Both the position numbers and the translations under genes were made by a program. DNA of 64,000 nucleotides from Rhodohalobacter sulfatireducens (GTDB lineage Bacteria > Bacteroidota > Rhodothermia > Balneolales > Balneolaceae). The notes below the pieces were generated by a model that was not told the DNA's origin, searched no databases, and worked only from the letters and a program-made list of their open reading frames with translations. The stretch covers positions 62,001 through 126,000 of the forward strand of contig NZ_JAKLWS010000010.1 of the NCBI RefSeq assembly GCF_022012475.1, in the 5' to 3' direction. Positions 55,298 through 60,096 of the stretch are shown piece after piece. How positions within the stretch are numbered: the first letter of the stretch is position 1; each line of letters starts with the position of its first letter.

Positions 55298-55690
55298 TCA
55301 ATTATCTGTAATCTCTTTCGCTCTTTTCTTGAATTTATCTTCCAAATAGACAATTATACTTTCATAATCTCTTTTTAAATCAAGTGTTGAAATCCTAATT
55401 ACTTTAATGCCACACTTTTTGAGTATCCGATCTTTTTTCTGATCCTCAACACATCTTCCATAGATATAATGAACATCACCAACCACCTCAATTCCCAGTT
55501 TTAGTTCTGGGCAATAGAAATCAATGACGTAATTATTTACACCATACTATCGTCTAACTTTGTAGCCCAACATTTGTTGAAGATCCTTCTATAAACGAAT
55601 CTCCCATTTTGTCATATTATTTCGGTGATATTGGCGCTGCTTTTTTGTTCTGTTAGGATTTAACACTTTAAATTCTTTCGAAAGTTGAAA
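55298..55690 (-). pseudogene. DUF559-domain endonuclease-like gene with two in-frame amber codons
   Basis: One frame from 55690 reads KVLNPNRTKKQRQYHRNNMT, KWEIRL-stop-KDLQQMLGYKVRR-stop-YGVNNYVIDFYCPELKL, then GIEVVGDVHYIYGRCVEDQK and KKCGIKVIRIS to the TAA at 55298. The stops are TAG at 55591-55589 and 55549-55547, at positions where relatives have W (RLWKDL) and Q (RRQYGV). Each could arise from one point mutation. DUF559 is a Vsr/restriction-endonuclease-like fold. No intact start is seen. It sits between fadN and the acyl-CoA synthetase gene. Confidence 0.8.
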
Positions 55691-55737
55691 TAAAAGGCTA
55701 CATCTCCTAACCCCTTCTTGCAAAGGAGATGAACTCA

Positions 55738-57546
55738 TCAATCACCTCCATTTGCTTTTACTTCATCCTCATACATAGACTCAATCTCCTCGCTGAATTT
55801 TTCATTAATTACATTTCGTTTTACCTTCATCGTTGGAGTCAACTCATCTGCTTCCACAGTGAGAGGTTCTTCCAAAAGCACGAATTTTTTGATTCTCTCC
55901 CAGGGTGATAGCTCTTTATTCACCTTATCCACTTCACGTTGAATAAGCTCACGAATTTTTCCATCCTCAGAGTAGGGTTCCTCAGGAGTATAGTGATCCC
56001 TCTTTAATCGTTTTTTCACATTCGAGTAATCTGGAATAATCAGGGCCGAGCAGAACTTTCGTTTGTAGCCTATGACAATGACCCTGTCGATAAAACCGGA
56101 ATTTTGAAGTTTATTTTCAATGTTTTGCGGTGCCACATATTTTCCGGTCGAGAGCTTAAACATCGATTTCTTTCTATCGGTGATGTATAAAAACCCATCC
56201 TCATCAATTTTACCTACATCCCCGGTTTTAAACCACCCGTCATCCGTAAATACTTCCTTCGTTTTTTCTTCATTTTTGTAGTATCCCTTCATGATATTGG
56301 GACCGCGGGCGAGGATCTCTCCATCATCGGCAATCTTAATTTCAACATCCCGAAGAGGTTTCCCGGATGTGCCTATTCTCATTTCACCCGGTTTTTGCAC
56401 TGTAATAACCGGAGATGTTTCGGTTAATCCATACCCCTGTACACATATCAACCCAATGGCATTCATGAACTTAAAAACTTCGGGTGATAATGCAGCCCCG
56501 CCACTTACCATCCCGCGTAAATTACCTCCAAAAAGTTCTCTTATCTCCTGATAAACAAATTTGTCAGCAATTTTGTGTTTCAGTGCACCAATACCACTCG
56601 GTGGGTTTTCAGGATTGTACTCTTCGGTTAGATAAATAGCCCAATAATAAATTGACTTTTTGATTCCCGAAAATTCCTGCCCCTTCACTTTTACACCGGT
56701 CTGTATCTTTTCGGGAAGACGCGGCACCGTTGCAAAGAAGAAAGGCTTGACATGCATCAAATCATCCCGGATCTCTTCGATATTTTCTGTATAAAAGATC
56801 CTGCAACCCATATAGATGTACATGTAGTCAATCATGCGTTCAAAAACATGTGAGAGTGGCAGATACGACAGTACCCTTTCCTGGTAGAACTCTTTCTCAT
56901 CGAACGGTAATTTTTCCATTGATGCCAAGACATTCGATGCAATATTATTGTGGGTCAACATCACCCCTTTTGGCATTCCTGTGGTTCCGGATGTGTAGAT
57001 CAACGTGGCAAGATCTTCTGATTTCACTTCGCTTTTAAGTGAATCAAACAGATCCGGTTTTTCTTTACGAAGCTTCTCGCCCCTTTCCAGGATACTTTCA
57101 AAAGGCTTTAACTTTTTATGTTTTGAGCCATATAGAGTGATAATTGCTTTAACAGTCTCGATCTCCTTTATAAGAGGTTTTGTCTCAGCAAAAATCTCAT
57201 CATCCGAAACTATATGAACTTTTGAATCAGAATTCTCCAGGATGTATTTAATCTGATCCCCGGGTTGTGTTGAATAGATTGGAACATCCGCTGCACCGAT
57301 TGACAGGATTGCGATATCACAAATAAGCCATTCGGCTGAATTTTCGGCATGAATGGATACCTTGTCCCCCGATCTTACTCCCAGATCGTATAAACCGAGA
57401 GCAAAATTGATAATTTTTTCACGAAAGTCTGAGACGTTGATTTCATGCCAAGTGCCATCTCTCTTCGATGAAGCGAATAATCCTTCCCCGTAATTTTCAA
57501 GTCCTTTGAATACAATTTCCGGTAGTGTGTGACTTGAAGAATTCAT
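55738..57546 (-). CDS. long-chain acyl-CoA synthetase (AMP-forming)
   Basis: A 602-aa adenylate-forming enzyme: LATLIYTSGTTGMPKGVM (P-loop motif), SYLPLSHVFERM, GYGLTETSPV, GWFKTGDVGKIDEDGFLYI and TDRKKSMFKLSTGKYVAP. This is the FadD/FACL type that makes acyl-CoA from fatty acids and ATP. First gene of the beta-oxidation set on the minus strand (synthetase, fadN, fadA, SDR), but an acyl-CoA dehydrogenase is absent from it. Confidence 0.94.
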   Translation of the reverse strand: MNSSSHTLPEIVFKGLENYGEGLFASSKRDGTWHEINVSDFREKIINFALGLYDLGVRSGDKVSIHAENSAEWLICDIAILSIGAADVPIYSTQPGDQIKYILENSDSKVHIVSDDEIFAETKPLIKEIETVKAIITLYGSKHKKLKPFESILERGEKLRKEKPDLFDSLKSEVKSEDLATLIYTSGTTGMPKGVMLTHNNIASNVLASMEKLPFDEKEFYQERVLSYLPLSHVFERMIDYMYIYMGCRIFYTENIEEIRDDLMHVKPFFFATVPRLPEKIQTGVKVKGQEFSGIKKSIYYWAIYLTEEYNPENPPSGIGALKHKIADKFVYQEIRELFGGNLRGMVSGGAALSPEVFKFMNAIGLICVQGYGLTETSPVITVQKPGEMRIGTSGKPLRDVEIKIADDGEILARGPNIMKGYYKNEEKTKEVFTDDGWFKTGDVGKIDEDGFLYITDRKKSMFKLSTGKYVAPQNIENKLQNSGFIDRVIVIGYKRKFCSALIIPDYSNVKKRLKRDHYTPEEPYSEDGKIRELIQREVDKVNKELSPWERIKKFVLLEEPLTVEADELTPTMKVKRNVINEKFSEEIESMYEDEVKANGGD

Positions 57547-57739
57547 AGTTAAAAAACCGCTTTTTTAGTAAACTGAGGTTGGTTAACACCGTTACCTAAT
57601 AAGTAACATTTTGCTGTGACTTTTAAAAATTTCTTTGAAAAAAATTTGATGATTTATCGATATTTTATTGCTAATCGTAGCTGACACTGATTTTTTCTAT
57701 TACTTCATAGTGTTTAACTAATTTTCAAATCAATTCCAG

Positions 57740-58174
57740 ATGCATATAGAACAGCAGATCAAGGAAAAGTTCGAGGGATTTTATAAACGACAGAAAAAAA
57801 ACATGGCAGATGCACTGGGATTGGAGTTCGAATATGTAAGCCGTGATGAGATGCGGGCTTCTATGCCGGTAGATGAAAATACCACTCAACCGATGGGAAT
57901 TTTACATGGCGGTGCTTCCGTCGCTCTTGCAGAAACGCTGGCCTCTGTTGGTGGGTATTTAAATCTAAAAAATGAAAATAAGATCGTTGTTGGCCTTGAA
58001 ATCAATGCCAATCACGTGAGACCGGTTTCCGAAGGCAACAAAGTTGTTGGGATATCCAAACCCATTCATCGTGGTTCACAAACACAAGTTTGGGAAACCC
58101 GAATTAAAAATGAGAGCGGAAAGTTGGTCTGCATCTCCCGCTGTACTCTTGCTGTGGTGAATAAACGCAAATAA
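57740..58174 (+). CDS. hotdog-fold thioesterase (PaaI/MenI-like)
   Basis: A 144-aa protein. SRDEMRASMPVDENTTQP, then MGILHGGASVALAETLASVG with the conserved HGG and catalytic Glu, and VVGLEINANHVRPVSEG are typical of the PaaI/DHNA-CoA hydrolase group. It hydrolyses aromatic or other acyl-CoA esters. It is divergent from the beta-oxidation set, so a link through CoA-ester metabolism is plausible but not shown. Confidence 0.9.
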   Translation: MHIEQQIKEKFEGFYKRQKKNMADALGLEFEYVSRDEMRASMPVDENTTQPMGILHGGASVALAETLASVGGYLNLKNENKIVVGLEINANHVRPVSEGNKVVGISKPIHRGSQTQVWETRIKNESGKLVCISRCTLAVVNKRK

Positions 58175-58178
58175 ACGT

Positions 58179-58505
58179 CTATCCCGTAATTCGAAACACG
58201 CCCGGTTCCGGTTCGGAGTTTTCATCAGTTTGAACAAATGTGTTGGAAGGCTTTAACACTCGCTCAAATAAAAATAAGAGTGAGGATTTAGTTTGAAGCA
58301 ACTCCTCTTCCGAAGTATCCTGATTGCTCTTCAATTTTGAGAGATAAAGATCTTTATGCCATTGCCTTATTTGGGATGAATGGGAAAGCGACATACTTTC
58401 CAAAAAATTACGGACGATTCGAACCATGGTTCTCTCAGTCGGGTACCCTGATTCTTTTCTTCGAATTTCAATTCGCAATCTCGAAAGTATCAATGATCGG
58501 TTCAT
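58179..58505 (-). CDS. orphan N-terminal SAM-like domain of a tyrosine recombinase
   Basis: A 108-aa protein, clean ATG at 58505 with AAGGAG six bases before. YPTERTMVRIVRNFLESMSL and QTKSSLLFLFERVLKPS parallel the IntI/XerC N-terminal core-binding domain (YLxWIxxFI... ALLFLYREVLG-type). No catalytic C-terminal domain follows: the gene stops after ~30 further residues and the next gene converges. Seen: the domain; inferred: a DNA-binding remnant or a stand-alone protein. No related integrase or clear attC site was recognised. Confidence 0.6.
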   Translation of the reverse strand: MNRSLILSRLRIEIRRKESGYPTERTMVRIVRNFLESMSLSHSSQIRQWHKDLYLSKLKSNQDTSEEELLQTKSSLLFLFERVLKPSNTFVQTDENSEPEPGVFRITG

Positions 58506-58633
58506 AATATCTCCTTTTTACTTGTATGAACCGGATTTTCTAAATCCCTTACAGAATTTTTTTGAATTGATTATTTGATGGATTTCAGTACTATTAAAAC
58601 ATGAACAAATGAGAAAATTCCAATGACCAAATC

Positions 58634-58709
58634 ACAAATAACAAACATTCGACTCATATTTTTGAAGTGCTTTAATTCAATTGCTTGAAAATTGGAGCTT
58701 GTTATTTGT
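58634..58709. repeat. 11-bp inverted repeat between orphan integrase-domain and VOC genes
   Basis: ACAAATAACAA (58634-58644) and TTGTTATTTGT (58699-58709) form perfect arms about 55 bp apart, in an AT-rich block resembling a common dispersed Bacteroidota repeat. No terminator T-run. Confidence 0.6.
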
Positions 58710-58768
58710 CCCATAGGGATCACTTTGTGGGAGTTTTCTACTAACATCAATCAAAACAAATAACCAAT

Positions 58769-59152
58769 ATGGCAAATAAAAAACCTATAACTGTAGGATG
58801 GTTTGAGATTCCAACCGCAGATATGGAACGTGCAATCAGATTTTACGAAACCGTTTTTGATTGCAAACTTGATCGAAATGCAATGGGCGATTTCGACATG
58901 GCCTGGTTTGCCTGGGATGAAGATATGAAAGGTGCAGGAGGCTCACTCGTCCATCATGAAACTTACTCTCCATCTCAAGATGGCACACTGGTATACTTTT
59001 CTTCTGAAGACACAAATACCGAACTAAATCGGATTGAAGAAGCAGGCGGTAAAATTCTCCAGGAGAAAACAGAGATCAGCCCGGATATAGGATATATGGC
59101 ACTGTTTTTAGATACCGAAGGAAACAGGATTGCGCTTCACTCAAGGAAGTGA
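58769..59152 (+). CDS. VOC family (glyoxalase-like) protein
   Basis: A 127-aa protein with two VOC repeats: TVGWFEIPTADMERAIRFYE with Glu/His metal positions, then TLVYFSSEDTNTELNRIEEA and MALFLDTEGNRIALHS. Members include glyoxalase I, dioxygenases and antibiotic-binding proteins; specificity is unknown. Single gene, no operon partner; its end faces the aminotransferase gene 17 bp away. Confidence 0.88.
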   Translation: MANKKPITVGWFEIPTADMERAIRFYETVFDCKLDRNAMGDFDMAWFAWDEDMKGAGGSLVHHETYSPSQDGTLVYFSSEDTNTELNRIEEAGGKILQEKTEISPDIGYMALFLDTEGNRIALHSRK

Positions 59153-59169
59153 TTTTCTATATCTGTTTA

Positions 59170-60096
59170 TCAGCTCAGCTTCGCCTTTCGTACTTCCTCC
59201 TCAATCAGAGCTTCGTACTTTTGTTGAAGGTCTTTTGTAATCTCTCCAAGAGAACCATTTCCGATCTTGCGGCCATCTACTTCCGGTACCGGAGTAAGTC
59301 CGCCGAACGTTCCGGTTACGAATGCTTCATCGGCGCCATATAGATCAAACAGAGAAAAATTCTTTTGATGACAGGGAATTCCGTAGTCATTACAAATTCT
59401 AATTACGTTATGACGCGTAATTCCATTCATACAATACTGACCGGTTGAGGTCCAAACTTCACCATTTGTCACCATAAAAAAGTTGGTGGCATTACAGGTA
59501 GATACAAAACCATTCACGTCAAGCATCAAAGCTTCATCTGCTCCGGCCTCCAGCGCCTGTATCAGTGCCTGCACTTCGTGAAGTTTACTATGGCAATTCA
59601 ATCTCGGATCTAAATAATCGGGGGAGCCTCTTCGGATTGTGCTGGTGAAAAGCGTAACTCCTTTATTTTTGGTCTCGGGTGATGCTTTTTTGAATTCGGG
59701 AATAATCACCAAATTCGGTCCGCTTACCGTTAATCGCGGATCTTGTGATGGAGTCTTTTTTATCCCTCTGGTGAGCATAAAACGAACATGAACTCCATCT
59801 TCCATTCCATTGGCATTCAGTGTCTTCCAAATTTCATTAGTCAACTCCTCTTTGGAAAATGGAAGATCCATACCAACCGTTTTAGCGGCTGTCCAAAGAC
59901 GGTTCAAATGAAGATCAAGAAAAACAAGAACACCTTTATGTAGTCGGCAGGCCTCCCAGACGCCATCCCCTACTAAATACCCACTATCAAAGACAGATAT
60001 TTTGGCTTCACTTCTTGGAAGGAGCTCACCATTGACAAAGATTTTTATGGATTCATTTCGCGGATCATCAAGAGCATTGTGGGTACCGTGAGTCAT
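59170..60096 (-). CDS. aminotransferase class IV (BCAT/D-amino acid transaminase-like)
   Basis: A 308-aa PLP enzyme. FVNGELLPRSEAKISVFDSG (family start), DPRLNCHSKLHEVQALIQAL with the PLP lysine in the SKLHEV region, ADEALMLDVNGFVSTCNATN and GADEAFVTGTFGGLTPVPEVD fit the class IV fold. It could be a branched-chain or D-amino-acid transaminase or an aminodeoxychorismate lyase; the exact reaction is not decided. Unclustered. Confidence 0.9.
   Translation of the reverse strand: MTHGTHNALDDPRNESIKIFVNGELLPRSEAKISVFDSGYLVGDGVWEACRLHKGVLVFLDLHLNRLWTAAKTVGMDLPFSKEELTNEIWKTLNANGMEDGVHVRFMLTRGIKKTPSQDPRLTVSGPNLVIIPEFKKASPETKNKGVTLFTSTIRRGSPDYLDPRLNCHSKLHEVQALIQALEAGADEALMLDVNGFVSTCNATNFFMVTNGEVWTSTGQYCMNGITRHNVIRICNDYGIPCHQKNFSLFDLYGADEAFVTGTFGGLTPVPEVDGRKIGNGSLGEITKDLQQKYEALIEEEVRKAKLS

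Follow-up and report, generated by a model that had tools for sequence, protein, structure and literature searches.

A conserved stand-alone core-binding domain of integron integrase type in Balneolaceae, preceded by a promoter-like box common to DNA uptake and recombination genes

In Streptococcus pneumoniae, comEC, radC, ssbB, and the recA operon are driven by ComX (PMC6560143). In Vibrio cholerae, QstR is needed for full induction of comM and comF, and QstR peaks lie near comEC and radC; the radC peak is 118 bp upstream of the gene, whose expression was not significantly affected (PMC6237807). Among the open-licence PMC papers listed in our searches, screened by title and the start of the abstract, we recognized no account of natural stand-alone proteins made of the N-terminal or core-binding part of the integron integrase IntI, of Balneolaceae integrons or their control, or of the promoter-like box described below.

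The window analyzed here is a 64,000-nucleotide stretch of the Rhodohalobacter sulfatireducens genome (contig NZ_JAKLWS010000010.1, positions 62,001 to 126,000). The initial annotation had proposed that it encodes a stand-alone integrase-type core-binding domain with its own ribosome-binding site and a proper stop. This observation was real. The gene (58505..58179, minus strand) encodes 108 amino acids from an ATG start to a TAG stop, and AAGGAG (58511..58516) ends 5 nt before the ATG; the minus strand and the promoter-like box are additions to the earlier description. PF13495 (Phage_int_SAM_4) matched residues 7 to 85 (58251..58487) above its cut-off (29.9 versus 27 bits, E = 7.5e-7); 15 of 16 aligned members of the protein family introduced below match it at E ≤ 0.1. 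The integron integrase profile TIGR02249 matched over positions 1 to 81 of 315 only (30.8 bits, cut-off 265), so the protein is not a full-length integron integrase with a catalytic domain but a core-binding domain standing alone, referred to here as the orphan. The absence of a catalytic domain nearby held when other frames were included: a profile built from the catalytic parts of seven recombinases (five IntI and two XerC-like) gave no hit at E ≤ 0.01 across 1154 window frames; as a positive control it recovered the IntI of the same genome (locus L107) with an E value of 1.4e-114. A tblastn search of the window with IntI also gave no match, which is a weak test given that the orphan ORF itself was missed. 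A profile of the orphan family matched this ORF and no other in the window.

The AlphaFold model of the orphan (mean pLDDT 79.9) consists of four helices, with a tail at the C terminus that is disordered. The best Foldseek match in the PDB was the integron integrase 2a3v (E = 5e-3, probability 1.00), followed by XerA and other core-binding domains; none of the PDB matches reached E ≤ 0.001. The predicted structure is that of a four-helix core-binding fold. Recombination directionality factors (excisionases) have a winged-helix DNA-bending fold, and this identity was rejected on the basis of the predicted fold and its top match.

An aligned profile was searched against 92 Balneolaceae genomes, and homologs of similar length were found at E ≤ 2.5e-29 in 20 of them, one per genome. 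These proteins are 104 to 117 amino acids long as delimited (that of G101 taken without its first M), and the next matches, at 7e-17, are where longer IntI-like frames begin. Carriers comprise 16 of the 28 genomes of the genus and four genomes in two other genera, and named relatives come from Balneolaceae MAGs, Rhodohalobacter halophilus, and one MAG titled Chitinophagaceae. In the tree, all 20 proteins group in a single clade (support 100/100) with a long stem. NG86 dN/dS was 0.05 to 0.19 in the 17 of 25 closest pairs with finite dS, the other eight being saturated; the pair G014/G002, for example, has a dS of 0.47 and a dN/dS of 0.088. The basic first helix of IntI (LRxELRRK) is retained, and over residues 1 to 90 the net charge averages +5.5 in the family versus +6.1 in IntI. 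Two features each present in 17 of 17 IntI sequences, T-Q-N in helix 4 and the HP-turn P, are replaced, while S8, Q45, W49, and L70 are invariant in all 20 members and new relative to IntI. The tail E-P-G-x-F-R-I-T-[AG] or a close variant is kept in 16 of 20 members, diverged in G003, G099, and G102, and missing in G015; in the window it reads EPGVFRITG (58182..58208), and it is absent from the IntI sequences compared. We set this tail against the RLPVVLT linker of IntI by eye and claim no connection between the two. These patterns of sequence conservation make it almost certain that the orphan is a real, conserved, functional gene.

The family occupies three main sites, next to the thioesterase gene paaI and fadD (nine genomes), next to CorA (three genomes), and at M23/hprK/hpf/xerC (three genomes), plus others; gene names are from Pfam on one example per site, except that xerC was named by the catalytic profile. 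At the paaI site, which includes the window, the orphan lies 3' to 3' with paaI, and the AMP-binding fadD gene adjoins. Among 25 paaI loci of the genus, one from every genome that had a paaI match and each spanning 2.3 to 3.4 kb, nine contain the orphan and none contains a recombinase catalytic part by the catalytic profile. The full-length recombinase that would have made the orphan a simple truncation is thus missing from this locus in relatives, and truncation was rejected on this result together with the similar length of the family and its purifying selection. The only catalytic part in 19 neighborhoods scanned was the xerC gene of the M23/hprK/hpf site, about 2.5 to 2.7 kb away. Because the family is spread over three main sites and others, paaI is an unlikely partner, and linkage to it was rejected. 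The paaI gene ends at 58174 and the orphan at 58179, leaving 4 nt between the 3' ends and therefore no room for attC; with no inverted repeat of ≥14 nt in 57600-59200, an integron gene cassette was rejected as well. Relatives were not confirmed in viral contigs and not found in plasmids at E ≤ 0.01, and PHROGs gave weak matches only, so a viral or plasmid origin was also set aside. Elsewhere in the window (55298-55741, minus strand), two short frames look like fragments of a single small gene, which by reading is apparently decayed here; the version in L042 (12198-12587) is longer.

Alignment of the upstream regions of the family revealed a promoter-like box, TGTAAGG-N16-TTCATAC, followed by TAAAA and often by a ribosome-binding site. 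In the window, the exact form TGTAAGG-N17-TCATAC lies at 58524..58553 on the minus strand, 18 nt 5' of the orphan ATG, which places the gene in the set defined by TGTAAGG-N17-TCWTAC 5' of a start codon; it is the one box site in the window, against a chance expectation of 0.00. In a test that allowed one substitution per box and spacers of 15 to 18 with a 7-base second box, 19 of 20 family members had the box, always with N16. The remaining member, G013, was counted as a miss; its contig starts 53 nt upstream of the gene, and TGTAAGG is followed there by a T-tract. The genome of the window (G000) contains 28 exact TCATAC sites and 31 with TCWTAC, versus none for a reversed-pattern control, and 46 versus 11 when one mismatch is allowed. 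Counts for 126 genomes of the order show 5 to 31 box sites in most Balneolaceae, with 0 to 2 in genus g5 and 1 to 3 in eight others; other families have 0 to 3 per genome, as does the reversed control.

A nameable gene follows 21 of the 31 box sites in G000, and the other 10 have none close by. The box precedes recA (at 154 nt), radC, comEC, comM/yifB, recQ, ssb, and a comF-like gene that scores below its family cut-off. It also precedes six IS200-like transposase genes (five pass the Pfam cut-off, and the sixth is 49% identical to another), GIY-YIG and GxxExxY genes, two genes for four-helix-bundle proteins, a 90-amino-acid DUF559 frame, a TPR gene, an HTH_18-like gene scoring below cut-off, and the orphan. 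The sites with one mismatch include intI. An exact box lies 5' of recA, radC, ssb, and the TPR gene in all four genomes read (G000, G066, G060, and G065), ssb being identified by Pfam in G000 and by reading in the others. In G066, the box is also found 5' of comEC, comM, intI, an orphan, and recN (at 229 nt). In a lenient search that had no chance control, 13 of 15 resolved IntI loci had a box with ≤2 mismatches, L022 and L031 failing, and 9 of 9 in this family had one with ≤1; three loci lacking a resolved frame were left out, and L109 repeats L023. In the stricter test, the intI genes of G000, G070, and G072 passed and that of G067 failed.

The orphan is very likely a member of this boxed gene set, and the set in turn likely concerns DNA uptake, recombination, or repair. 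As in a competence regulon, comEC, the comF-like gene, comM, ssb, recA, and radC all have the box in G000; the core competence gene dprA has no box in the fetched locus L228. The missing dprA box, together with boxed recA, ssb, recN (in G066), recQ, radC, and intI, is in keeping with a DNA-damage regulon in which the orphan helps repair, and recA, ssb, recN, recQ, and intI would fit such a regulon too. We regard this alternative to competence as possible but somewhat doubtful, as comEC, comM, and the comF-like gene are in the set. The box shared by the IS200-like genes (L137, L138, L142, L152, L155, L182), the four-helix-bundle genes (L136, L141), and the GIY-YIG and GxxExxY genes (L157, L158) suggests a common DNA-processing program, and the box offers a handle on these small genes of unknown role.

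An ECF-like sigma factor gene of 179 to 181 codons lies directly 5' of the TPR gene in all four genomes read. Its product matched TIGR02937 at an E value of 7e-10 (38.7 bits, under the cut-off of 42.9) and Sigma70_r4_2 at 18.6 (under the cut-off of 25.7). Among 12 genomes with both lists in view, the box starts 3 to 26 nt past the end of the sigma match, a gap that includes the stop codon, in 11, the miss being G059. The order of ECF-like sigma gene, box, and TPR gene is seen on contig C50 of G000 (L144, L145) and in L218 to L220; by reading, the TPR product is anti-sigma-like with an apparent single membrane segment. The pair adjoins radC in G000; in the three other genomes, a gene that by reading is scpA-like lies nearby. 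At E ≤ 1e-15, 118 of the 126 genomes have sigma relatives, usually two paralogues per genome. In g5, the five genomes that have no relative show 0, 0, 0, 0, and 1 box sites, which is consistent with this sigma factor as the reader of the box. G107, G111, and most genomes of other families have a sigma relative and few or no box sites, so that either the box differs there or the candidate is not the reader. The association of sigma factor and box in these sequences is a correlation, not proof. A long IntI-like frame lies about 6.6 to 7.7 kb from the sigma-like gene in G059, G060, G061, G064, and G090, possibly a physical linkage of integron and regulator.

Other stand-alone IntI-type core-binding domains occur in these bacteria. 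In genus g7, the members of a second orphan clade of four (L055, L097, L098, L099; support 100/100) neighbor a deaminase gene of tadA type, named by Pfam in one of the four loci. Its dN/dS of 0.10 to 0.12, in the three of six pairs with finite dS, indicates that these sequences are under purifying selection, and all four genes have the box, again with N16. In g7, an orphan also lies directly 3' of full-length intI in G070 and G072, and likewise in G067 with a GIY-YIG gene between, and G040 and G048 have another orphan with the same gene order in both (L056, L057). For nine other orphans, the tree needs five gains or losses, at least three of them forced by starred branches. Five of the nine (G067, G070, G072, G069, and G104) had the box in the 7-base test, with N16 here as well, and seven of nine with a shorter 6-base second box, with which G073 and G029 also passed with one mismatch; the G040 and G048 orphans have TGTAAGG and lack the second box. 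Orphan genes may owe their box simply to descent from intI, a point against the reading favored below.

The relation of the orphan to IntI itself was assessed by co-occurrence. The 5.1-Mb genome of the window has one IntI over the cut-off, on another contig (C65); by reading, pairs of small antitoxin-like and PIN-like genes on the 5' side of this complete intI (L107, 11807-14340) are possibly a cassette array. In the 28 genomes of the genus, IntI over the cut-off was found in 10 of 16 orphan carriers versus 5 of 12 noncarriers, so there is no significant link (Fisher P = 0.45), and co-occurrence was dropped as an explanation. Five of the six carriers without such an IntI are drafts of about 260 to 410 contigs; the sixth, G012, is 99% complete in about 10 contigs. 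A role for IntI only is disfavored because 6 of 16 carriers lack IntI over the cut-off and the association is not significant. The suggestion in the initial annotation that such domains could be regulatory or decoys stays a conjecture; a decoy of IntI alone is unlikely, and the box points to the DNA uptake and recombination gene set instead. A broader version, in which the orphan competes or coassembles with full-length IntI on attC or attI and so damps or redirects cassette recombination, draws on the common domain, on a box found at most intI genes tested, and on the orphans 3' of intI in the three g7 genomes. We consider it unlikely, given the lack of association in the genus, the absence of IntI over the cut-off in G012, and the replacement of the helix 4 T-Q-N.

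A small DNA-binding fold with a flexible tail, under a box common to its presumed targets, would also suit a protein that regulates transcription of this gene set or of its own gene. This is improbable, since by eye no second conserved box accompanies the promoter-like one in five upstream alignments, and core-binding domains are clamps and are not known as operator readers. Truncated IntI-like frames do exist in relatives (for example, G043 and G114), but a nonfunctional relic of this kind is hardly credible for a gene whose dN/dS is well below 1 and whose length, box, and tail are kept across 20 genomes.

The reading that we favor, if only by a little, is that the orphan is a domesticated, noncatalytic IntI core-binding domain that serves a competence-like gene set, or one for DNA damage, as an accessory protein that binds DNA; the DNA-binding role in the particular form given here we put at even chances. 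The orphan is thus more probably a functioning accessory DNA-binding protein than a recombinase that has broken down. Control by the sigma factor, DNA binding, and a partner are elements of this scheme that we infer. The gene would have arisen from the 5' half of an integron integrase gene, comprising promoter and core-binding domain. During DNA uptake or repair, a sigma factor of ECF type would read the box, possibly the one whose gene immediately precedes the TPR, anti-sigma-like gene. DNA binding is suggested by the fold and the retained basic residues: the IntI-like four-helix clamp may bind folded single strands or duplex resembling a core site. It would be unable to cut or join DNA, and its flexible tail might recruit or modulate a recombination partner. 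A more far-reaching version, which we hold to be rather unlikely, is that a dedicated Balneolaceae ECF-sigma competence program activates the integron integrase and IS200-like single-strand nucleases along with DNA uptake and recombination, with the integrase clamp as a separate noncatalytic chaperone for incoming folded single-stranded DNA that couples transformation to cassette capture. If the favored reading is true, a dedicated sigma factor ties integron activity in these bacteria to the uptake or repair of DNA, and half of a recombinase has become a gene in its own right more than once.

Of the known systems, the integron integrase (TIGR02249; 2a3v) has the same N-terminal core-binding domain, basic first helix, and fold as the orphan, and in Balneolaceae its gene has the same box. 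The orphan differs in lacking a catalytic domain, in the replaced residues of helix 4 and the HP turn, and in its own C-terminal peptide. Core-binding domains whose structures were solved in isolation (lambda Int, 2oxo; Haloarcula, 3nrw) show the same small helical fold as a separate crystal unit, but by their titles these are domains of full recombinases, whereas the orphan is a natural gene. The boxed set resembles late-competence regulons by analogy. Like the ComX regulon, it places comEC, recA, radC, and ssb under a single signal of the alternative-sigma type; it has a different box and an ECF-like candidate sigma factor beside an anti-sigma-like gene, has no box at dprA, and includes integrase and IS200-like transposase genes (PMC6560143). 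Like the TfoX/QstR regulon, it has comM, comF, and comEC under one regulator, which in V. cholerae is a transcription factor and not, as proposed here, a sigma factor; an integrase does not appear in the excerpted text on TfoX/QstR (PMC6237807). The domain is known, and its existence as a separate, selected gene within this gene set is, as far as we have seen, new.
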